A stretch of 37,731 nucleotides of DNA from the IMG/VR virus record IMGVR_UViG_3300046012_000348, positions 1 to 37,731 of that record; one strand, given 5' to 3'. The translations under genes and the position numbers were made by a program. Below the pieces are notes generated by a model. It saw nothing but the letters and a program-made list of their open reading frames with translations. It was not told the DNA's origin and did not search any database. This document shows, one piece after another, positions 1,750-33,810 of the stretch. The DNA is from a virus. Numbering within the stretch: position 1 is the stretch's first letter; each line of letters starts with the position of its first letter.

Positions 1750-2050
1750 CGGAACACCGCAGCGGGCGGGGTGCTACGTGTGTGGCAAGCGGCCCGTCGT
1801 GGCGACGCGGACGTTCTTCTGCACGGCCGGCCCGACCGTCAGCGGCGACGTATGTGGGGCGCACCTGGATGACTCACCGCGGCCCTGCGCTTTTTGCGGT
1901 CACGTCACCGACGTAGCCGACCTCATGGACGTGATTCACGGCATCTTCGAGAGGCTCGTGACGGTCGCGCCGCCTCCGCCGAACTTCATGACGAATACGG
2001 ACGAGTACGTCGTGGTGCTCAAAGAAGCTCGGAGGGTTCTCGGTGGCTGA
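1739..2050 (+). CDS. Zinc-ribbon protein
   Basis: A 103-aa protein. The GTG at 1739 has a good ribosome-binding site (AGGAGA about 6 bases upstream) and overlaps the previous gene by 11 bases. It contains C-Y-V-C, F-F-C, V-C-G-A-H-L-D and C-A-F-C-G-H, a likely two-knuckle Zn fold, then an amphipathic C-terminal helix (VVVLKEARRVLG). This layout resembles small phage ClpX-type or double-ribbon zinc proteins, but the resemblance is too weak to name. Its end overlaps the integrase start by 8 bases. Confidence 0.55.
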   Translation: MQRDGTPQRAGCYVCGKRPVVATRTFFCTAGPTVSGDVCGAHLDDSPRPCAFCGHVTDVADLMDVIHGIFERLVTVAPPPPNFMTNTDEYVVVLKEARRVLGG

Positions 2051-3218
2051 TCTCGGAACGCCCTCACCTCTGCCCGCTGATAGCGCCAGCTCCGATCTCG
2101 TGCAGTCCCTACACGAGCGCGCCACGCTCGTGGCGACGCTGCAGAACCCGGAGATCACCCTTGCGCGCGCCGCGGCGACCTACATCCTCTTCAAGCGCCG
2201 CCGGCTGACCGCCGCGTCGGAACGCGGCTACAAGCACGTCCTCGACGAACTGACGATCAACCATCCGGGCTCGAGGTTGCGCGACTTCGACCCGCCGACC
2301 GGGACGCTCGTGATCGAGGAGTTCCTCGCGACCCGCTGGGGGCATCTAGCGCCGCGCACCTACAACAAGAGCTACTCGATCCTCTCCGACTTCTTCGAGT
2401 GGCACGTCGCGCGCGGCACGCTCCTCAGGACTCCGATGGGGACGCTCGAGCGTGCGAAGACGCGGCCTGTCCTGCGCATCACGTTCAGCGACGTGCAGGT
2501 CGTGCAGATCCTTGCGGCGAACACGCCCGCGCGCGACCAGATCGCGCTGCGGCTGCTGCTCTTCTTCGGCATCCGCAAGGGCGCATTGCGAGGCGTCCGT
2601 CTGGAGCACTTCGACGTCGAGAAGCGGCGGCTCACCGTGTTCACGAAGGGCGAGAAGATCCATACGCTGCCAATCGTCGACGACACGATCTGGCAGCTCC
2701 TCGCCGACCTTCGCGAGCCTGGCGATCACTACCTGCTGCCGAAGCAGAAGACGAGGAAGCGGATACCGCCAACCAAGGCTGCGTTGAAGCAGCTCGCCGC
2801 GGCGGTCGCCTCGACCCGTGAACCTCTCACGGCGGCGGCCGTCGACGCGCAGTGCGCGCGCGAGCTCGCAGACGTGCTCGACGCGCTCGAGCTGGCAGAT
2901 GTTCGGCTGAAGCTCGCGATCGACGCCGCGTCGACACAGACAAAAGTCGATCTGACCCAGCCGATCGGCGAGCACGGTGCCCATCTCTGGTGGTACCGCT
3001 GCCTCGCCCGCGCCGGCATCGTCACGAAAGGACAGACGGCCGGGCGGAGGATGCACAGCGCTCGCCACACGGCCATCCAGCGGGTGCTCGACAAGACGCA
3101 GAACCTGAAGGCCGCGCAGCAGCTCGCCGGGCACGCGAACATCGGCACGACCGGCGACACCTACACCGACTGGACACTCGAACAGCAGGCCGAAACGATG
3201 CGCGAGGTGCTCGGGTGA
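2043..3218 (+). CDS. Tyrosine recombinase / phage integrase (first copy)
   Basis: A 391-aa tyrosine recombinase, GTG start, predicted to catalyse site-specific integration. An N-terminal arm and core-binding SAM-like helical domain (about residues 35-125) precedes the catalytic domain. Catalytic residues are visible: Arg178 in FFGIRKG, Lys202 in FTKGEK, His338 and Arg341 in HSARHT, His364 in LAGHANIGTT and nucleophile Tyr374 in GDTYTDW. The set is complete, so the enzyme is expected to be active. Odd: about 75 extra residues (roughly 235-310) lie between the beta-hairpin Lys and the HxxR box, a helical insertion absent from the second recombinase downstream. It is coupled by GTGA to an excisionase-like gene. 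Confidence 0.9.
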   Translation: MADLGTPSPLPADSASSDLVQSLHERATLVATLQNPEITLARAAATYILFKRRRLTAASERGYKHVLDELTINHPGSRLRDFDPPTGTLVIEEFLATRWGHLAPRTYNKSYSILSDFFEWHVARGTLLRTPMGTLERAKTRPVLRITFSDVQVVQILAANTPARDQIALRLLLFFGIRKGALRGVRLEHFDVEKRRLTVFTKGEKIHTLPIVDDTIWQLLADLREPGDHYLLPKQKTRKRIPPTKAALKQLAAAVASTREPLTAAAVDAQCARELADVLDALELADVRLKLAIDAASTQTKVDLTQPIGEHGAHLWWYRCLARAGIVTKGQTAGRRMHSARHTAIQRVLDKTQNLKAAQQLAGHANIGTTGDTYTDWTLEQQAETMREVLG

Positions 3219-3442
3219 CCTCGAGCCTCGGCATCGAACTGACGGGCCTGTATGACTGCGCGCGGTTGGTGCGCGAGCTCGGCGTGTCGCGGAAGGCTGC
3301 GGAGGCGATCATGTTGCGGGTCGACAAGCAGAAGGTTCCGGGTTTGCGCAAGGTGTATGTGAGGGGCGCGGACGTGCAGCGGCTGCTTGACGAGAACCTG
3401 GTGGACGCGAAGAGCGAACGGCCGCTGGGGAGGGTCGCGTGA
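3215..3442 (+). CDS. Excisionase-like / MerR-type winged-helix protein
   Basis: A 75-aa protein starting at a GTG that overlaps the integrase stop. The body (LYDCARLVRELGVSRKAAE..., then LRKVYVRGADVQRLLDEN) fits a MerR/Xis-like small winged helix: a helix-turn-helix choosing a DNA site, then a beta-hairpin wing and the common 'R-x-x-D-V-x-x-L-L' helix. Such proteins act as recombination directionality factors. Its place between two recombinases supports this. The length is typical of Xis proteins. Confidence 0.7.
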   Translation: MTSSLGIELTGLYDCARLVRELGVSRKAAEAIMLRVDKQKVPGLRKVYVRGADVQRLLDENLVDAKSERPLGRVA

Positions 3443-4548
3443 GCCCGGCGTGGATCCGTCCTCGTGTCGTGAAGGTGACGAGACGGAACCCGCGTGGCCG
3501 GACGTTCCAGGTGCTGTATCGGCGTGGCGGCCGCGGCACGCCGATCGAAGCTGCCGGCAGCTTCAAGACCGAACGGGAGGCGAAGACCCGCCGGGATCTC
3601 GTCGCCGGCTGGCTCGCGCAGGGTCGTAACCCGAAGGCCGAGCTCGCGACCCTGGTTGCCGCCCCCGTCGTGGCGCGTAGCTATCTGGCGACGGCGGAGG
3701 CGATGATCGTGTCGCGCCACGACGCCGCCCCGAGCACCCTGCAGGCGAAACGGCATGCTCTCGGAAAGCTGCAGGCGGTCCGACCCGATCTGGCGGCGAA
3801 ACCGCCCGAGGCGTGGACGGTCTCGGACGTGCAGGAGTTGGTAGCGGCGTTCATCAATGCGGGACTGTCGCCCTCGACGGTCGAGAAGTATCTGGGTGAC
3901 GGGCCGAAGGGCGTCCTCGACTTCGCCGGCATCGACCCGAACCCGGCCCGCGACCGGCGCGTCAGACTTCCCGCCACGACGGCGGCGGAGGTTGCGCCGC
4001 CGCCCGCATCGGCCGTGCTCGCGATCCTCGCGGATGTCGCGGACAGGTTCGTGCTTCCGATCGTCACGCTCGAGCAGACCGCGATGCGGGTCGGCGAACT
4101 GTGCTCGCTGCCGTGGGGAGACGTGGATCTCGCCGGGTCACGGTTCCGGCTGTCACGCGAACGGACGAAGACGAGGCATCCGCGCTGGGTGCAGGTGCCC
4201 GGCTGGCTGATCGACGCGATCTCGGACACCTGCCCGCTCGAGGACAGGGCCGCCGGTCGGCTCGTCTTCCAGCGCGTTACGGAGTCGTCGATCCGGGCGA
4301 CGATGGCGCGCGCCTGCCGCAACGCCGGCATCCCCGTCTACTCGCCGCACGACCTCCGCCACCGCCGCGCATCGCTCTGGCACGGCCAGGGCGTCACGTT
4401 GCGCGAACTGATGGACCGCGGCGGCTGGAAACGCAGCGAGATCGCGATCGACACCTACAGCCACGTCATGCCGCTCGACGAGATCCCCGACAAGGCTCTG
4501 CAGGCGATCATCGCGGCACCGCCGAAATCCTCCAGGACACGCCTGTGA
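3439..4548 (+). CDS. Tyrosine recombinase / phage integrase (second copy)
   Basis: A 369-aa tyrosine recombinase, GTG start overlapping the upstream stop. An AP2-like arm-binding N-terminus (about residues 10-65: VKVTRRNPRGRTFQVLYR) is followed by a core-binding domain (80-165) and a catalytic domain. Catalytic residues: Arg217 in TAMRVGEL, Lys244 in ERTKTRH, His304 and Arg307 in HDLRHRR, Trp330 in GGWKRSE where many relatives have His, and nucleophile Tyr340 in IDTYSHV. Trp at that site is known in active members such as Cre, so activity is plausible. The proteins are too dissimilar for recent duplication of the first recombinase. The downstream gap is a reasonable place to look for attP. 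Confidence 0.9.
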   Translation: MSPAWIRPRVVKVTRRNPRGRTFQVLYRRGGRGTPIEAAGSFKTEREAKTRRDLVAGWLAQGRNPKAELATLVAAPVVARSYLATAEAMIVSRHDAAPSTLQAKRHALGKLQAVRPDLAAKPPEAWTVSDVQELVAAFINAGLSPSTVEKYLGDGPKGVLDFAGIDPNPARDRRVRLPATTAAEVAPPPASAVLAILADVADRFVLPIVTLEQTAMRVGELCSLPWGDVDLAGSRFRLSRERTKTRHPRWVQVPGWLIDAISDTCPLEDRAAGRLVFQRVTESSIRATMARACRNAGIPVYSPHDLRHRRASLWHGQGVTLRELMDRGGWKRSEIAIDTYSHVMPLDEIPDKALQAIIAAPPKSSRTRL

Positions 4549-8191: not shown

Positions 8192-8397
8192 GCCGCCCCG
8201 GCACGCCTGAGTTCAAACGGGAGCAGCTCTACAAGCAGCAACTCGGCGAGGACGCACTCGAGCGGCAGACGACCGAGCGCGGCGAACGTCATCCGTGCTG
8301 CTGGGAGCTCGTCCAGGACGGCCACCACCCGGCCTGCTCGAAACGCCCCGACGACGAGCCGGCGCGGGTCCACGAGAACCAGGCGTCCATCCTGTGA
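8188..8397 (+). CDS. Small hydrophilic protein
   Basis: A 69-aa protein, GTGA-coupled at both ends. It is charged and helical at the N-terminus (FKREQLYKQQLGEDALERQ), with H-P-C-C-W and P-A-C-S-K later. No function is recognised. Tight coupling to the nuclease downstream suggests co-expression. Confidence 0.5.
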   Translation: MSRPGTPEFKREQLYKQQLGEDALERQTTERGERHPCCWELVQDGHHPACSKRPDDEPARVHENQASIL

Positions 8398-8747
8398 CCG
8401 AACGGCAGCTCCAGGACGCCGTGATCGCCTGCGCCCGCCTGCTCGGCTGGAAGGTTGCGCACTTCCGGCCCGCCCAGACAGCGAAAGGCTGGCGTACCCC
8501 CGTCGAAGCTGACGGCGCGGGTTTCCCCGACCTGATCCTCGCGCACCCGTCGAACGGCATGGCTGTCTACGCGGTTGAGTTGAAAGCCGCTGCAGGCCGC
8601 ATCTTGCCCGCTCAGCAGGGCTGGCTCGACGTGCTCGAGCAAGCAGGCTGCCACACCGCCGTCTGGAGGCCCGACGACTGGCGCAGCGGCCGCATCGAAG
8701 CCCAACTCCGCCTCACAACCGAACCCCCGACAGGAAGGACGACATGA
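8394..8747 (+). CDS. VRR-NUC domain nuclease
   Basis: A 117-aa PD-(D/E)XK nuclease of the VRR-NUC type found in many phages. Seen: TERQLQDAVIACARLLGW (N-terminal helix with Glu3 and Gln7), GAGFPDL with Asp46, VELK with Glu62 and Lys64, and AQQGWLDVLEQAG with Gln74/Gln75. Together these are the full catalytic signature. Stand-alone phage VRR-NUC proteins are thought to be structure-specific or Holliday-junction-type nucleases in replication and recombination. The GTG start overlaps the upstream stop. Confidence 0.85.
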   Translation: MTERQLQDAVIACARLLGWKVAHFRPAQTAKGWRTPVEADGAGFPDLILAHPSNGMAVYAVELKAAAGRILPAQQGWLDVLEQAGCHTAVWRPDDWRSGRIEAQLRLTTEPPTGRTT

Positions 8748-9075: not shown

Positions 9076-9161
9076 CGTGGGCGTGCACCCACGGCCTCAC
9101 TGCGTCTCAGAGCCCGCCCCTGTGGCAACGGGTGCACGACTTTCGCCGCGGGGGCGGACTC
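9073..9161. repeat. Two inverted repeats upstream of rep
   Basis: A perfect 9-bp dyad, GGCCGTGGG (9073-9081) and CCCACGGCC (9088-9096), has a 6-base loop CGTGCA. A second stem pairs 9110-9120 with 9151-9161 (GAG-c-CCGCCCC with GGGGCGG-a-CTC, one mismatch). The loop of the second contains GGGTGCACG (9130-9138), complementary to CGTGCACCC (9082-9090). The first dyad overlaps the -10, so it may act as an operator rather than in RNA. Confidence 0.5.
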
Positions 9162-9189
9162 AGGGACGCGTGGGACCAGGGCGCCGCTG

Positions 9190-9939
9190 ATGGCCCGCAC
9201 GATCGGCGTCCTGAAGGTCGAGGTGTGGGAGCCCGTAAGCGAGTTCCGCACCCTCGAGCTCGTGCCGCAATGGGCCTACGTCATGCTGCTCTCGCAGCCG
9301 CAGATCTCGAACCTCGGCATCCTCCCCTACACCCCCGAGAAATGGGGACGCCTCGCCGCCGGCCTGACCGTCGAAACCGTCGAGACGGCGCTCAGGACAC
9401 TCGACGAACGCCGGTTCACCGTCACCGACCGAGACACCGGCGAGCTGCTCGTCCGGACGTTCATCAAGCACGACAAAGTCTGGTCGCAGCCGAAGCTCGT
9501 CACGAACGCCCGCCGGCTCATCCGCGAAGTCGAATCCGCCACCATCCGCGACTACCTCGTCGACCGCCACCCGTGGCTCCGCGAAGCATGGCCGCTCACC
9601 CGAATCAAGACCCACGAGGCCTGTGGAAAACCCCGGGAACCGTTAGGGGTAACCGAACCCCTAACCGAAGGGGTAACGCAAGGGGTAAACGAAGGACTAT
9701 CGGAAGGGGTAACCGAACCCCTCGCGATACCCCAATCCCCCCCGCGCGCGCGTGTACGCGCGGCCCCAGCCCCTGCCCCTACCCCTGATGTAACTCCAAG
9801 GGCTGTACTCGACCAGCAGGCCGACTCGCCACCGGCGCCCGCCGCCGAGCCGCCGCACCCGGAAGCCGCCGAACAGCCCGGGGAGCAAGCACGCATACAG
9901 GCCCTCATCGAGGAAGCGTTCCCGAAGGTCATGCCGTGA
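9190..9939 (+). CDS. Phage replication initiator-like protein
   Basis: A 249-aa protein. The N-terminal 140 residues (MARTIGVLKVEVWEP, LELVPQWAYVMLLSQPQ, LPYTPEKWGRLAAGL, FIKHDKVWSQPKLVTNARR) match the winged-helix 'replication initiation protein' type common in actinobacteriophages. It probably binds the origin and recruits host replication proteins. Residues about 152-178 are a repeated tetrapeptide G-V-T-E/P-L-T-E encoded by 12-bp iteron-like DNA. The C-terminal part is Pro/Ala-rich and disordered, ending in a helix. A terminal replication-loading role is inferred from the lambda O arrangement, where the origin lies inside the initiator gene. No Shine-Dalgarno sequence is obvious at this ATG. 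Confidence 0.75.
   Translation: MARTIGVLKVEVWEPVSEFRTLELVPQWAYVMLLSQPQISNLGILPYTPEKWGRLAAGLTVETVETALRTLDERRFTVTDRDTGELLVRTFIKHDKVWSQPKLVTNARRLIREVESATIRDYLVDRHPWLREAWPLTRIKTHEACGKPREPLGVTEPLTEGVTQGVNEGLSEGVTEPLAIPQSPPRARVRAAPAPAPTPDVTPRAVLDQQADSPPAPAAEPPHPEAAEQPGEQARIQALIEEAFPKVMP
9645..9722. repeat. 12-bp tandem iteron array, candidate replication origin
   Basis: Six successive 12-bp units start at 9645, 9657, 9669, 9681, 9693 and 9705, with variants of AGGGGTAACCGA (unit 2 is ACCCCTAACCGA, unit 5 is the most diverged). An identical 18-bp palindrome-like block AGGGGTAACCGAACCCCT occurs at 9645-9662 and 9705-9722. A CGCGCG-TGTA-CGCGCG hairpin (9747-9762) and CCCCTN repeats (about 9763-9786) follow. 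Direct iterons inside a rep gene are typical of initiator-binding origins. Confidence 0.65.
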
Positions 9940-10226
9940 CCGAACGCCACGACATCTGGGCGATCGCCGACGCCATCCAGATGGACCTCCGCGCCGCCCA
10001 GGCGAAGATGGTCGAGCTCCGCGCCCACCTCGCGCAACTCGACCTGCCCGACACGACCGGCGTCACCTGCTCGAGCTGCGGCGTGAAGCTGCGCGGCCCG
10101 AACACGCTCGCCGAGCATGTGCACGTCTCGCACGACGGGCCGCTGCCGGCGCACTGGGTTCAGGCGGACGCGCTGGTGGACGAGGTGGCCGTGGTGGACA
10201 TCGACGAAAGCCAGGAGACGCTATGA
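9936..10226 (+). CDS. Small protein with C2H2-like zinc finger
   Basis: A 96-aa protein, GTG overlapping the rep stop. An N-terminal amphipathic helix (AIQMDLRAAQAKMVELRAHL) could be a coiled coil. It is followed by C-S-S-C-G-V-K-L and, 15 residues on, H-V-H-V-S-H, forming a single C2H2/C2HC zinc finger. DNA or RNA binding is likely. Its place next to the initiator suggests a replication accessory role, but this is inferred. Confidence 0.6.
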   Translation: MTERHDIWAIADAIQMDLRAAQAKMVELRAHLAQLDLPDTTGVTCSSCGVKLRGPNTLAEHVHVSHDGPLPAHWVQADALVDEVAVVDIDESQETL

Positions 10227-12589: not shown

Positions 12590-13042
12590 GTGGACGCGCT
12601 GCCGGCGCTCACCGACGAGCAACGCAACGCTGTCGTCGAAGCGATCCGCGCCGACACGAAACTCGGCAACGTCATCGCGCTACGCCAGGCAGGGGTCGAA
12701 GGGACGAAAGGCCAGTTGCGTGCGCTGATCGACGACGAGTTGGCGGAGCAGATCCGGGAGGCGCGCGGCTGGTCGCTCGTGCAGGTCGAACAGTCCGCGT
12801 GGTCGGTCGCGACCGACCCGGAGCATCCGTCGTGGGACCGTGCGAACGCACGCATCCTGAAGGCCTACCATCCAGCGTTCCGCGACATCTCACGGCACGA
12901 ACTGACGGGCAAGGACGGCGGCGCGATCCAACTGATCGCCGGCCGCTTCGACCCCGACCTTTGGACACTCGAAGAGCTCGAGCAGGCAAAGACGCTGCTC
13001 GAGAAAGCGACGCCGAAAGAGATCACCGATGGCAACGGTTGA
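12590..13042 (+). CDS. Terminase small subunit-like protein
   Basis: A 150-aa protein from a GTG at 12590. The N-terminal half looks like a helix-turn-helix of the small-terminase kind (LTDEQRNAVVEAIRADTKLGNVIALRQAGVEGTKGQLRALIDDEL). It continues with an acidic helical middle (AEQIREARGW, HPSWDRANARILKAYHP). It immediately precedes and overlaps (14 bases) the large subunit, its normal place. It should recognise the packaging site and load DNA. Confidence 0.7.
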   Translation: MDALPALTDEQRNAVVEAIRADTKLGNVIALRQAGVEGTKGQLRALIDDELAEQIREARGWSLVQVEQSAWSVATDPEHPSWDRANARILKAYHPAFRDISRHELTGKDGGAIQLIAGRFDPDLWTLEELEQAKTLLEKATPKEITDGNG

Positions 13043-14663
13043 GCTCAGCCTGGAGGAGATCGACGCGGCGATCGAAAGACGCCGAAACGGCGAACGCCTC
13101 GCCGAAGAAGCGACGCGGCTGGCCGGTGACCTGCGCCAGTTCGTGAAGGCGTCGTGGCACACGATCGTCCCGAACGTCCCGTATGTGCACGGCTGGCACA
13201 TCGACTCCATCTGCGACCATTTGGAGGCCGTCAGTGCGGGCGAGATCCGCCGGTTGCAGGTGTGGATTCCGCCCGGCACGTCGAAGTCGACGACCGTGTC
13301 GATCGCCTGGCCCGTCTGGGAGTGGCTCGCCCGGCCCGAGCTGCGCTACCTGACCGCCTCCTACGACCTGCGGCTCGCGACAAGGTTCGCGGTGAAGTCG
13401 CGGGACCTGATCCGTTCCGCCTGGTTCCGTGCCCGCTGGCCGCACGTTGTGTTGAAGCCGGACGAGGATCTGAAGCAGTCGTATGCCAACACGGAAGGCG
13501 GCCGCCGGTTCGCGACATCGCCGTCGGGTGGCGCGACCGGCGAACACGCGGACCGCATCCTGATCGACGACCCGCTGGACGCAAACGACGTCGTCTCCGA
13601 AGCCGCGCTCGACCAGGTGCGCGAGTGGCACGACGGCACCATCTCAACCCGTTTCGCCGACGCACGTACGGGTGCGGAGGTGATCATCCAGCAGCGGCTC
13701 GCGGAACGTGACCTGCCGGGCCATGTGATCGCCGGCGCGGACGACTGGACGGTGCTGTGCCTGCCCGAACGGTACGAGCGGACGCACCCGTTCGTCTACC
13801 CGGACCGTGTCGAGCTTCCATCCGGCCGGGTTCTGCAGGGCGACATCCGCGACCAGGACGGCGAGCTTCTGTGCCCGGAAAGGATCGGCGAAGCAGAGAA
13901 CCTCACCCGCGCCTCGACGCTCGGCGCGTTCCGTGCCGCCGGCCAACTGCAACAGCGGCCCGCCGCCCGCGAAGGCGCGATCCTGAAACGGTCCGGCTGG
14001 CGCTTCTACCCGTCCGGATGGCGCGAAGACGACCAACGCCACCACCTGCCCAAGTTCGCCGGGATCGTGCAGTCGTGGGACACCACCTTCAAAGACAAAA
14101 CCTCCAGCGACTACGTCGTCGGGACCGTGTGGGGCCAGACGGGCGCGGACCTGTATCTGCTCCGCAAAGTCCGCGACCGGATGTCGCTGTCGCTGACGAA
14201 AGCCGCGATGCGTGAGATCACCGGGTGGGCCGACGAGCGGTGGCCGCAGATCCCGCACCGCATCCTGATCGAGAAGTCCGCGAACGGTGTCGAGATCATC
14301 GAAGAGCTGAAACGCGAGCTGCGCGGCATCACCGCCGTCGTCGCGTCAACGTCGAAGGTCGCGCGCGCCGAAGCAGCCGAACCAGCGCTCGAGGCCGGGA
14401 ACATCTATCTGCCCGGCCAGGCCGAACCGGGCTCGCCGTCCGGCTACAACGAAGCCGTCACGCCGGCGGACAGCCAGGAGCTGATCGAGGAGTGCGCCAC
14501 CTTCCCGCTCGGCGACCACGACGACCAGGTCGACTCGTTCACCCAGGCGGTCAACTGGACACGGGGCAACCAGATCCGGCCCGCACGGACAGCGAAACCG
14601 CAAGGCCGCATCCCAACCGGGGCACCGACACGGAACCTGACCGTCATCGCCGGCCACCGCTGA
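13029..14663 (+). CDS. Terminase large subunit (packaging ATPase/nuclease)
   Basis: A 544-aa DNA-packaging motor. The ATPase domain has a Walker A-type loop IPPGTSKST (residues 80-88), where Ser85-Lys86-Ser87 bind phosphate, and a Walker B RILIDD (176-181). The C-terminal RNase H-like nuclease has Asp351 in QSWDTTFKDK, Glu415 in ILIEKSANG and an acidic cluster Asp498/499/502 in GDHDDQVDSF. The order and length are normal for siphophage TerL, so the protein looks intact. The ATG at 13029 is inside the small-subunit gene. The next gene starts after a promoter, so the packaging operon probably ends here. Confidence 0.93.
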   Translation: MATVELSLEEIDAAIERRRNGERLAEEATRLAGDLRQFVKASWHTIVPNVPYVHGWHIDSICDHLEAVSAGEIRRLQVWIPPGTSKSTTVSIAWPVWEWLARPELRYLTASYDLRLATRFAVKSRDLIRSAWFRARWPHVVLKPDEDLKQSYANTEGGRRFATSPSGGATGEHADRILIDDPLDANDVVSEAALDQVREWHDGTISTRFADARTGAEVIIQQRLAERDLPGHVIAGADDWTVLCLPERYERTHPFVYPDRVELPSGRVLQGDIRDQDGELLCPERIGEAENLTRASTLGAFRAAGQLQQRPAAREGAILKRSGWRFYPSGWREDDQRHHLPKFAGIVQSWDTTFKDKTSSDYVVGTVWGQTGADLYLLRKVRDRMSLSLTKAAMREITGWADERWPQIPHRILIEKSANGVEIIEELKRELRGITAVVASTSKVARAEAAEPALEAGNIYLPGQAEPGSPSGYNEAVTPADSQELIEECATFPLGDHDDQVDSFTQAVNWTRGNQIRPARTAKPQGRIPTGAPTRNLTVIAGHR

Positions 14664-31146: not shown

Positions 31147-33810
31147 ATGGCGAGCGTCGACAAGCAGACGAGGGCGCTGATCGTCGACCTCGAGGAGAGA
31201 CTCGGCGAGATCCCGGCCGGCCCGCAGGGCGACAAGGGCGACAAGGGTGACCGCGGCGATAAGGGAGAGAAGGGCGACAAGGGCGATCCCGGCGAGAAAG
31301 GGCAGCGCGGCTTCTCAGGCTCGGGCGCTGTTGGTGCTGCCGGCCCGCCCGGCGTTGGTGTTCCGGCGGGTGGCACGACCGGGCAGGTGTTGGAGAAGGC
31401 GTCGAACACGAACTTCGACACCGGCTGGGTTGACCCGGCGGGAGGTTCACGGCCGGATGTGACGGATGGCGTCACCACGGTCGCGGCACCCGCGGCGATC
31501 GAGTTCGTCGGCGCGACGGTCGCGGATGATGCTGGCAACGCGCAGGTGACGGTGGTGGGTGGTTCCGAGACGTTGGCGGAAGTGCTCGCGAACGGTGCGG
31601 ACGCGGGCGGAGCGACGATCGACGGGCTCGCCGATCCGACGCTCGACCAGCAGGCCGCGACGAAGGCATACGTGGATGCGAACGACGGTTCCCAGACCGC
31701 CGCCCTGGCCGCCGAAACCGCCGCGCGCGAGGCCGCAGACGCCGGACTACAGCCACTCGACTCGGATCTCACCGCCATCGCGGCGCTCTCGACGACGGCC
31801 TACGGTCGAGCGATACTCGCGCTCGCCGACGCGGCTGCGCTGCGCGCCGCCGCCGCTCTCGGGACCGCAGCGACCTCGGCCACAACCGATTTCGACGCCG
31901 CCGGCGCGGCCGCCGCTGCCCAGGCGGCGTCGCAGCCGCTCGACAGCGACCTGACGGCAATCGCGGCGCTGGCGACGACCGCGTTCGGCCGAGCCCTCCT
32001 CACCACCGCCGACGCCGCCGCCGCACGGACGGCGACCGGGGCGATCAACCGCGTTCAGGACGCGACCGACGTCACGGTCGCCTCGCTCGCTCAGGGCGAC
32101 CTCCTCCACTACGACTCTGCCACCTCGAAGTTCAAGAGCGGCCGCCGCGAGAGCTACCTAAAGGTCGAGGACTACTACGACTCCGGGTCGGTATCAACAG
32201 ACATAGGGCCGGCGATCAACAGGGCGATCACAGCGGCGGCCGCATTGACGACCCCGACGAAGGTGGTCATGCCCGCGGTTAGCGCGCCGCTCGCGACGGC
32301 GATCACGCCGGCGAACTACGTCTCGCTGATCGGGCAGGGCTGGGGCAAGACGGTGCTGCGTATCACCGGCGGTATTCACGGCATCACCCTGCTCGGCGCG
32401 AAAGCCACCCCGCTTCTCGGCGTCGACTTCCAGGACTTCGAGATGGACTGCACCGCCCAGACCGGGCTCAACAAGGCGATCTTCATCCAGTGGCTTCGAC
32501 GCTGCCGTTTCGAGCATCTCTACATCCATCAGGCTGGCGCGACGGGGCTCGGCTGCGACTTCCTCGTCGATTGCCTTCTCGACGACATCTTCGCCGACAG
32601 TTGCGGCGCGGCCGGATCGGGATCGTCGGGCGGCTGCGCAGGCGTCGGGATCGGCACCTACCAGGCATCCGACTGGTACGGCGCGCTGACGCTCCGCTCG
32701 ATCGTGTCGCGCAACAACAAGCGGGCCGGGATCTTCTTCGAGACGCAGACAGTCTCGGCCGGAACCGCGTTGCAGGAGGGCGTGAAGGTGCTGGCGGCGG
32801 ACTGCTCATACAACGGCGACCACGGGATCGGAGACGCTGGCTGCACCGGCCTCGAGGTGATCGGCGGCCACAGCCACCACAACGGCGGCAACGGTTTCTG
32901 CGTCTACGCCGGGACGATCAGTTCGGGCACGCCCGGAGACGAGGGACTCGTCACCGGGCTCGACAGCCACGACAACACCGGCATCGGTTTCTACTTCGAC
33001 GGCTCCTCGAAGCTGCCGGGCAGCTACACCCTCCGCGGTGTCAAAGCCCGCTCGAACGGGACATACGGCATCCAGGTGTTCGACACCGCCACCGGGACAC
33101 AGGCTCGGTTCACCGTCCAAGACAGCGACTGCGAACTGAACGGCAAGGCAGGGATCGCAGTGATCGGCTCATCAAGCACCGTCGACCAGGTGCAACTGAT
33201 CGGTAACCGGTTGCGTGCGAACGGGCAGAACGGAGCCGCGAGCGCGGAGACGCGCGCCGGGATTTACCTGGGCGGCACGATCACAAACGCGATCGTCCGA
33301 GACAACCGCGCCTACGACGACCAGGGCAGCCAGACGCAAACCTACGGGTTCGTCGTCGCGACGAGCGCGTCGGTGACGAACCTCGACGAACGCGACAACG
33401 ACTGGCGCACCAACCTGACCGGCGCCCGCGACATCGCCGGGACCGTCTCCGGGACCGTGTACCGGCAGCGCAACCGCGGCGACGACGCAGCCGACGCGAT
33501 CCTCGCCGCGAACAACCAGACCGGCACCACCTACACCCTCGCGCTCGCCGACGCTGGCGAGGTCGTCGAACTGAACAACGCATCCGCGATCACCCTCACC
33601 GTCCCACCGAACTCCTCGGTGGCGTTCCCGATCGGCGTCGTGGTCGAGCTCTTCCAGCAGGGAGCGGGACAGGTGACCGTCGCCGCCGGTGTCGGGGTCA
33701 CGATCCGCAGCCCCTCGAGCAAGCTGAAAATGACAGGCCAGTACGCGGGCGCGTCGCTGCGCAAGCGCGGAACGGACGAATGGACGCTCGAAGGGAACCT
33801 CTCCGCGTGA
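31147..33810 (+). CDS. Collagen-like tail fibre/tailspike with beta-helix
   Basis: An 887-aa fibre protein. Residues about 25-70 are G-x-y collagen-like repeats (GDKGDKGDRGDKGEKGD). Two copies of the tail-fibre repeat QPLDSDLTAIAAL occur near 195 and 258. A right-handed beta-helix (about 400-760) has pectate-lyase-like coils (LDSHDNTGIGFYF, VQDSDCELNGKAGIAVIG), and a C-terminal beta domain (TLALADAGEVVELNNASA) may be a trimerisation or chaperone tip. The N-terminal collagen stalk would extend the spike from the virion. Receptor binding or polysaccharide degradation is likely. It is unusual to find it between protease parts in the head module. Confidence 0.8.
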   Translation: MASVDKQTRALIVDLEERLGEIPAGPQGDKGDKGDRGDKGEKGDKGDPGEKGQRGFSGSGAVGAAGPPGVGVPAGGTTGQVLEKASNTNFDTGWVDPAGGSRPDVTDGVTTVAAPAAIEFVGATVADDAGNAQVTVVGGSETLAEVLANGADAGGATIDGLADPTLDQQAATKAYVDANDGSQTAALAAETAAREAADAGLQPLDSDLTAIAALSTTAYGRAILALADAAALRAAAALGTAATSATTDFDAAGAAAAAQAASQPLDSDLTAIAALATTAFGRALLTTADAAAARTATGAINRVQDATDVTVASLAQGDLLHYDSATSKFKSGRRESYLKVEDYYDSGSVSTDIGPAINRAITAAAALTTPTKVVMPAVSAPLATAITPANYVSLIGQGWGKTVLRITGGIHGITLLGAKATPLLGVDFQDFEMDCTAQTGLNKAIFIQWLRRCRFEHLYIHQAGATGLGCDFLVDCLLDDIFADSCGAAGSGSSGGCAGVGIGTYQASDWYGALTLRSIVSRNNKRAGIFFETQTVSAGTALQEGVKVLAADCSYNGDHGIGDAGCTGLEVIGGHSHHNGGNGFCVYAGTISSGTPGDEGLVTGLDSHDNTGIGFYFDGSSKLPGSYTLRGVKARSNGTYGIQVFDTATGTQARFTVQDSDCELNGKAGIAVIGSSSTVDQVQLIGNRLRANGQNGAASAETRAGIYLGGTITNAIVRDNRAYDDQGSQTQTYGFVVATSASVTNLDERDNDWRTNLTGARDIAGTVSGTVYRQRNRGDDAADAILAANNQTGTTYTLALADAGEVVELNNASAITLTVPPNSSVAFPIGVVVELFQQGAGQVTVAAGVGVTIRSPSSKLKMTGQYAGASLRKRGTDEWTLEGNLSA

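Follow-up and report, generated by a model that had tools for sequence, protein, structure and literature searches.

The initiator gene and its surroundings

Examination of an IMG/VR virus record of 37,731 bp (67% GC), analysed over its whole length and here called the window, reveals a plus-strand gene at 9190-9939 that codes for a protein of 249 aa. Its closest PHROGs family is phrog_3171, 'replication initiation protein' (E 7.7e-34, with the profile match spanning residues 1-227), followed by the identically named phrog_8064 (5.1e-29). An ORF in another frame that overlaps this gene (9132-9788) was rejected as spurious because of the family support for 9190-9939. In the AlphaFold2 model a winged-helix domain (residues ~10-145, pLDDT mostly >90) is followed by a disordered linker (146-229, pLDDT 50-66 over most of it) and a C-terminal helix (230-243). 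Fold matches of the model in the PDB are to ordinary winged helices with Z about 6. Among these are 4pql (Z 6.4, rmsd 3.4-3.7, 87-88 residues aligned) and the 'Rep-DNA complex' 5kbj (Z 5.6, 87 aligned), both of which we take to be RepA_N domains; they align with model residues 1-90 in VIA-align and are tied with CRP-type winged helices. A profile search of PDB sequences gave chance-level matches only, and several matches among predicted viral structures are named 'replisome organizer'. We regard the protein as a putative replication initiator on the basis of its PHROGs and GenBank names, the predicted winged-helix fold and the gene context.

Just upstream lies a gene for a VRR-NUC domain nuclease (8295-8747, Pfam PF08774), a position near the initiator where many relatives have a RusA or RuvC resolvase gene. 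The initiator stop codon is overlapped by a small ORF (9936-10226) with a zinc-finger-like CxxC...H...H motif, and an ORF with a similar start (MSDRHQIWE) occupies the matching position in the nearest relative phage that we found, IMGVR_UViG_3300015203_000012 (L026, L106; terminase 86% and initiator N-terminal domain 67% identical). Since many longer relatives hold a Cys/His-rich C-terminal part inside the initiator itself, this ORF may be a split-off piece of it. Elsewhere, two adjacent genes (2043-3218 and 3439-4548) both match families of tyrosine integrases (phrog_1), which is an uncommon combination in a record of phage size, and a 9/36-bp repeat (AGGGCGACA) at 31226-31295 lies inside the ORF 31147-33810, where its unit would encode a collagen-like Gly-X-Y pattern as in tail-fibre proteins.

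A 12-bp repeat array within the linker-encoding segment

Starting about 455 bp into the initiator gene, at 9645-9722, is an array of six 12-bp units, in order AGGGGTAACCGA, ACCCCTAACCGA, AGGGGTAACGCA, AGGGGTAAACGA, AGGACTATCGGA and AGGGGTAACCGA, followed by the half unit ACCCCT. The units share a GGGGT/ACCCC core in mixed orientation, and we propose that they are sites for the initiator. They encode residues 152-178, which fall within the predicted disordered linker. A preliminary description of this DNA had located the array inside a replication initiator gene and had recognized six units in 12-bp phase that include two identical 18-bp blocks, all of which we confirm. It had also called the iterons exact, which holds for a single pair: units 1 and 6 are identical, while the other full units match one another at 6-11 of 12 bases. 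The 18-bp block AGGGGTAACCGAACCCCT, an inverted repeat of AGGGGT/ACCCCT, occurs at 9645-9662 and again, identically and offset by 60 bp, at 9705-9722, and it is the sole exact 18-mer repeat in the whole window. All four occurrences of GGGGTAA on both strands of the window are in the array. At lag 12 the array span matches itself at 40 of 66 positions, a value equalled only by overlapping spans that start at 9634-9650, and its local self-match was reached by none of 300 dinucleotide shuffles of 9601-9820. The region gave no match at the DNA level in phage records.

The array was also said to be GC-rich; instead, AT content rises to as much as 48% here against 33% window-wide, and the 80-bp stretch from 9637 is among the least stable duplexes of the window. 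No clean switch of GC skew occurs at the site, and a promoter and terminator scan was uninformative. A hairpin is predicted at the first 18-bp block, extending to GTTAGGGGT/ACCCCTAAC. As RNA the inverted repeats form better folds than their shuffles do (z -2.7), and on that ground the array could be considered a structured control element in the mRNA. However, the same tendency is seen for DNA (z -2.4), Rfam has no match for the array, and the repeats of many relatives are mostly in one orientation and lack such hairpins, so that we give an mRNA element hardly any credence.

As the array is in frame, and 12 bp correspond to four codons, it translates into a tetrapeptide repeat, LGVTEPLTEGVTQGVNEGLSEGVTEPL. 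The tetrapeptide repeat noted earlier is present in approximate form. This raises the alternative that a functional tetrapeptide linker is what is maintained, with the DNA repeat as its by-product. Codon usage speaks against this: GTA, CTA and TTA (Val/Leu) account for 7 of the 27 array codons but, across 17 other ORFs of the window, for just 28 of 7,364. The highest count per 27 codons in any other ORF examined is 3. In 20,000 synonymous recodings neither the array's count nor its overall codon rarity was reached once. In the window alone, the lag-12 self-similarity of the array is not significant against the same kind of null (3012 of 20,000 recodings). A repeated peptide by itself yields much lag-12 identity, and therefore the codon rarity and the cross-family comparisons below carry the argument. 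Because codon choice exceeds the synonymous null, the constraint on the array acts on the DNA letters, beyond the amino acids.

Conservation of the array across diverged relatives

A tblastn search of GenBank with the initiator recovered 202 phage records. Single-sequence searches of IMG/VR and GTDB contigs returned no relatives, but a search with an N-terminal alignment did find them in IMG/VR; together with those from phage and plasmid records these amounted to 104 genes, which were thinned to 61 at <70% N-terminal identity. Enrichment of 6-mers was computed over 53 non-redundant relatives, excluding the window, against synonymous shuffles that preserve every protein and the codon pool of each gene. 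In most relatives an array lies right after the conserved N-terminal domain, with a GGGT/ACCC core and a period of 11, 12, 22, 24 or 36 bp. No 6-mer of the linker segment is more enriched than AACCCT/AGGGTT (126 occurrences against 33.9 expected, z 15.7), which shows no enrichment in the N-terminal part (4 occurrences, 4.0 expected). Summed over the 54 genes of at least 200 aa, WACCC/GGGTW cores number 322 against 180 expected, with 31 of these genes individually at p<=0.05. In a good minority of relatives the AACCCT-type enrichment is not significant, and some have other cores such as GATAGCC. The linkers of three relatives (L037, L067 and L078) contain this second core class, GATAGCC/ATGCCCTATCCG, and where the GGGT-type tract would otherwise be they have runs of the 7-mer AACCCTC or AACCCAC; they may represent a distinct origin subtype.

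The cores occupy all three codon phases (88/85/64 on one strand and 23/38/25 on the other) and occur in both orientations in 36 of the 40 genes that have at least four of them. Spacings between cores on the same strand are 12 bp (57 times) and 11 bp (30 times). Where the orientation flips, the core offsets become 10 and 13-14 bp, and the centres of the sites therefore stay about 12 bp apart. As the reading frame across the DNA core varies, the linker peptides of relatives are wholly different, for example EPFPEPF, NPSETLP, VDPSVDP and EGVTEGV.

Arrays outside the gene in relatives with short initiators

The initiators of some relatives are short, at about 160-190 aa, and lack the linker. In the Arthrobacter phages Brent, Shade and Hirko and in two IMG/VR relatives (L055 and L098), the array is instead found in the gap directly past the initiator stop codon. 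Its units are CGAAGACCCTCC (x5.8) in Brent, about AAACCCTTCGAT (x5.7) in Hirko, AGCCCCTCGATT (x7.6) in Shade and TCCAGAAAGGGT (x3.2) in L098, and each of the five arrays was matched by none of 300 dinucleotide shuffles. Brent is the cleanest case, with all three forward frames interrupted within the array, whereas Shade, Hirko and L055 keep one forward frame open across it; in Hirko a hypothetical gene of 36 aa is annotated over the array. With 12-bp arrays outside the gene, the 12-bp period does not derive from the reading frame. The purely in-frame period stressed in the preliminary description thus loses its meaning, as relatives show 11 bp within the gene and 12 bp outside it. Downstream of non-coding arrays, L008, L010, L011, L019 and L055 have a common box, AATCGTC..TAAGTTAACGCGCGAG, and ACGCGCGAG recurs in several relatives with coding arrays.

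These comparisons bear on the alternatives. The idea of a functional tetrapeptide linker is largely refuted by the rare codons, by peptides that differ entirely while the DNA core persists in every phase, by 11-bp arrays that rotate the frame, and by arrays that lie outside the gene, and we hold it to be extremely unlikely. Comparable repeats also occur at parS and pac sites, and the terminase gene of the window (13029-14663) is only 3.3 kb away, which might suggest a cis site for packaging, partition or recombination. Yet it is the initiator gene, rather than the terminase, that the array accompanies: in Gordonia phage GAL1 the terminase occupies 1.6-3.2 kb, whereas the array-bearing initiator gene is found at 42.6-43.5 kb. 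No partition gene turned up among the proteins searched. Such a site is accordingly a very improbable reading of the array.

Simple-repeat tracts and DnaA-like sites beside the array

The array of the window is followed by an alternating CG tract, CGCGCGCGCGTGTACGCGCG, at 9743-9762, and by a C-rich hexamer tract, (GCCCCT) x4.2, at 9763-9787, which is a candidate unwinding element; no A+T-rich tract adjoins the array in the window. Similar alternating tracts, often CGCGCGAG, come after the array in relatives, and simple repeats of 6-8 bp are found near it. CGCGCGAG is present in the linker segment of 14 of 61 relatives, as against 3 of 61 upstream and 1 of 59 downstream. In the linkers of relatives there are also 74 alternating YR runs where 11.5 are expected and 43 NAG trinucleotide runs where 13.6 are expected. 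As (NAG)3, alternating YR and CGCGCGAG were chosen after viewing the same data, these enrichments are only suggestive.

A near-DnaA box with one mismatch, TGTGGAAAA (TTTTCCACA on the minus strand), is located at 9622-9630 and is the sole such site in the window. It amounts to weak evidence since such boxes are not general in relatives: they occur in 2 of 53 (three boxes against 0.2 expected), and DnaA boxes as a general feature of these arrays are unsupported. The linker segment of L031 has two exact TGTGGACAA sites 12 bp apart inside its array, a sequence that is presumably the actinobacterial DnaA box, and L040 carries TGTGGATAA.

As a lead, the nearest known analogue of the NAG runs may be the DnaA-trios, with the consensus 3'-GAT-5' (PMC6669920). 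One could imagine that the family has a two-module origin, in which packed 11/12-bp iterons are joined to a simple-repeat tract of strand-asymmetric composition, made of NAG trinucleotides or of 6-8 bp repeats. This tract would serve for single-strand recognition and opening, in place of an A+T-rich unwinding element. Such an arrangement would be loosely DnaA-trio-like, with a small winged-helix initiator replacing the AAA+ protein. We offer this model as a speculation that is rather unlikely to hold.

Comparison with known in-gene origins

Several known systems resemble this layout. In pSK41 Rep, a RepA_N protein, the N-terminal domain binds boxes that lie centrally within rep, and the linker encoded by the origin is dispensable (PMC5703833). 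The family resembles it in a predicted N-terminal winged-helix domain (~120 aa), in repeats centrally placed in the initiator gene and in a linker encoded by the proposed origin. On the other hand, a Pfam RepA_N (PF06970) match is absent from the window at E<=10 and from 36 relatives at E<=5, and for this reason we do not file the initiator as RepA_N despite the pSK41-like layout. The hosts of this phage family are soil actinobacteria, its sites have G/C cores where RepA_N sites are A+T-rich in the middle, and where a C-terminal domain would be expected the window protein has no more than a short helix.

In SPP1, oriL lies within gene 38 and gp38 binds the direct repeats of that origin (PMC6316719), a precedent for origin repeats inside the gene of the protein that, as we propose here, would bind them. 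SPP1 differs in having its own helicase loader and helicase, neither of which turned up in the search of the window proteins, and an AT-rich unwinding element, where the tract of the window is C-rich. The lambda ori lies within O, with iterons bound by the N-terminal half of O and an unwinding segment alongside (PMC4488673). The iterons within the initiator gene are a shared feature, and N-terminal binding with flanking unwinding may be shared as well; lambda, however, has four 19-bp iterons and a 40-bp A+T-rich segment, where the present family has packed 11/12-bp units oriented both ways, along with simple-repeat tracts. Among actinophages, the origin of the RepA-like mycobacteriophage prophages Miko, Rachaly and Jeeves, whose RepA is related to that of pMSC262-type plasmids, was guessed to be inside or immediately upstream of repA, with no repeats reported in the regions examined (Wetzel et al., PMC7157519). 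These, too, are actinophage initiator genes with an origin suspected in or near the gene, but all three phages are absent among the matches listed for the present family.

A candidate origin for a family of actinobacteriophages

In light of the above-described comparison with relatives, the parallel to lambda O drawn in the preliminary description is well supported, and we consider it likely that the array is an iteron origin lying in the gene of the very initiator that binds it, or the initiator-binding part of that origin. The further suggestion made there, that the array sets initiator copies, is a conjecture for which we found evidence on neither side. The N-terminal winged-helix domain would bind the 12-bp sites side by side and in either orientation, and the bound initiators would form a nucleoprotein complex adjoining the CG and hexamer tracts. 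The duplex might then open at these tracts, where the host helicase and primase would be recruited. The segment of the protein encoded by the array would be a tolerant, disordered linker, and it is due to this tolerance that DNA sites could be written into it.

A different role for the same sites is that of an operator or roadblock, by which the initiator would repress, or set the timing of, its own gene or its neighbours at a place that is no origin. Iteron initiators are often autoregulatory, and constraint at the DNA level with sites in mixed orientation suits any sequence-specific binder. Nevertheless, the array lies about 455 bp inside the gene, or past its stop codon in short-gene relatives, and not at a promoter; simple-repeat tracts accompany it as they do at origins; and the precedents that share the layout are origins. 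We therefore regard a purely regulatory array as improbable and favour the origin.

While in-gene iteron origins are a known kind, their family-wide presence in actinophages appears to be undescribed: our literature search found neither a description of the array in this initiator family nor a published origin for actinobacteriophages that have it. The array thus provides a sequence-defined origin candidate for a large actinobacteriophage family. Moreover, members of a single protein family carry the array either in coding or in non-coding DNA, a naturally occurring exchange by which the function of the DNA is set apart from that of the peptide. Such origins could be developed into plasmid tools for use in Gordonia, Arthrobacter and hosts related to them.
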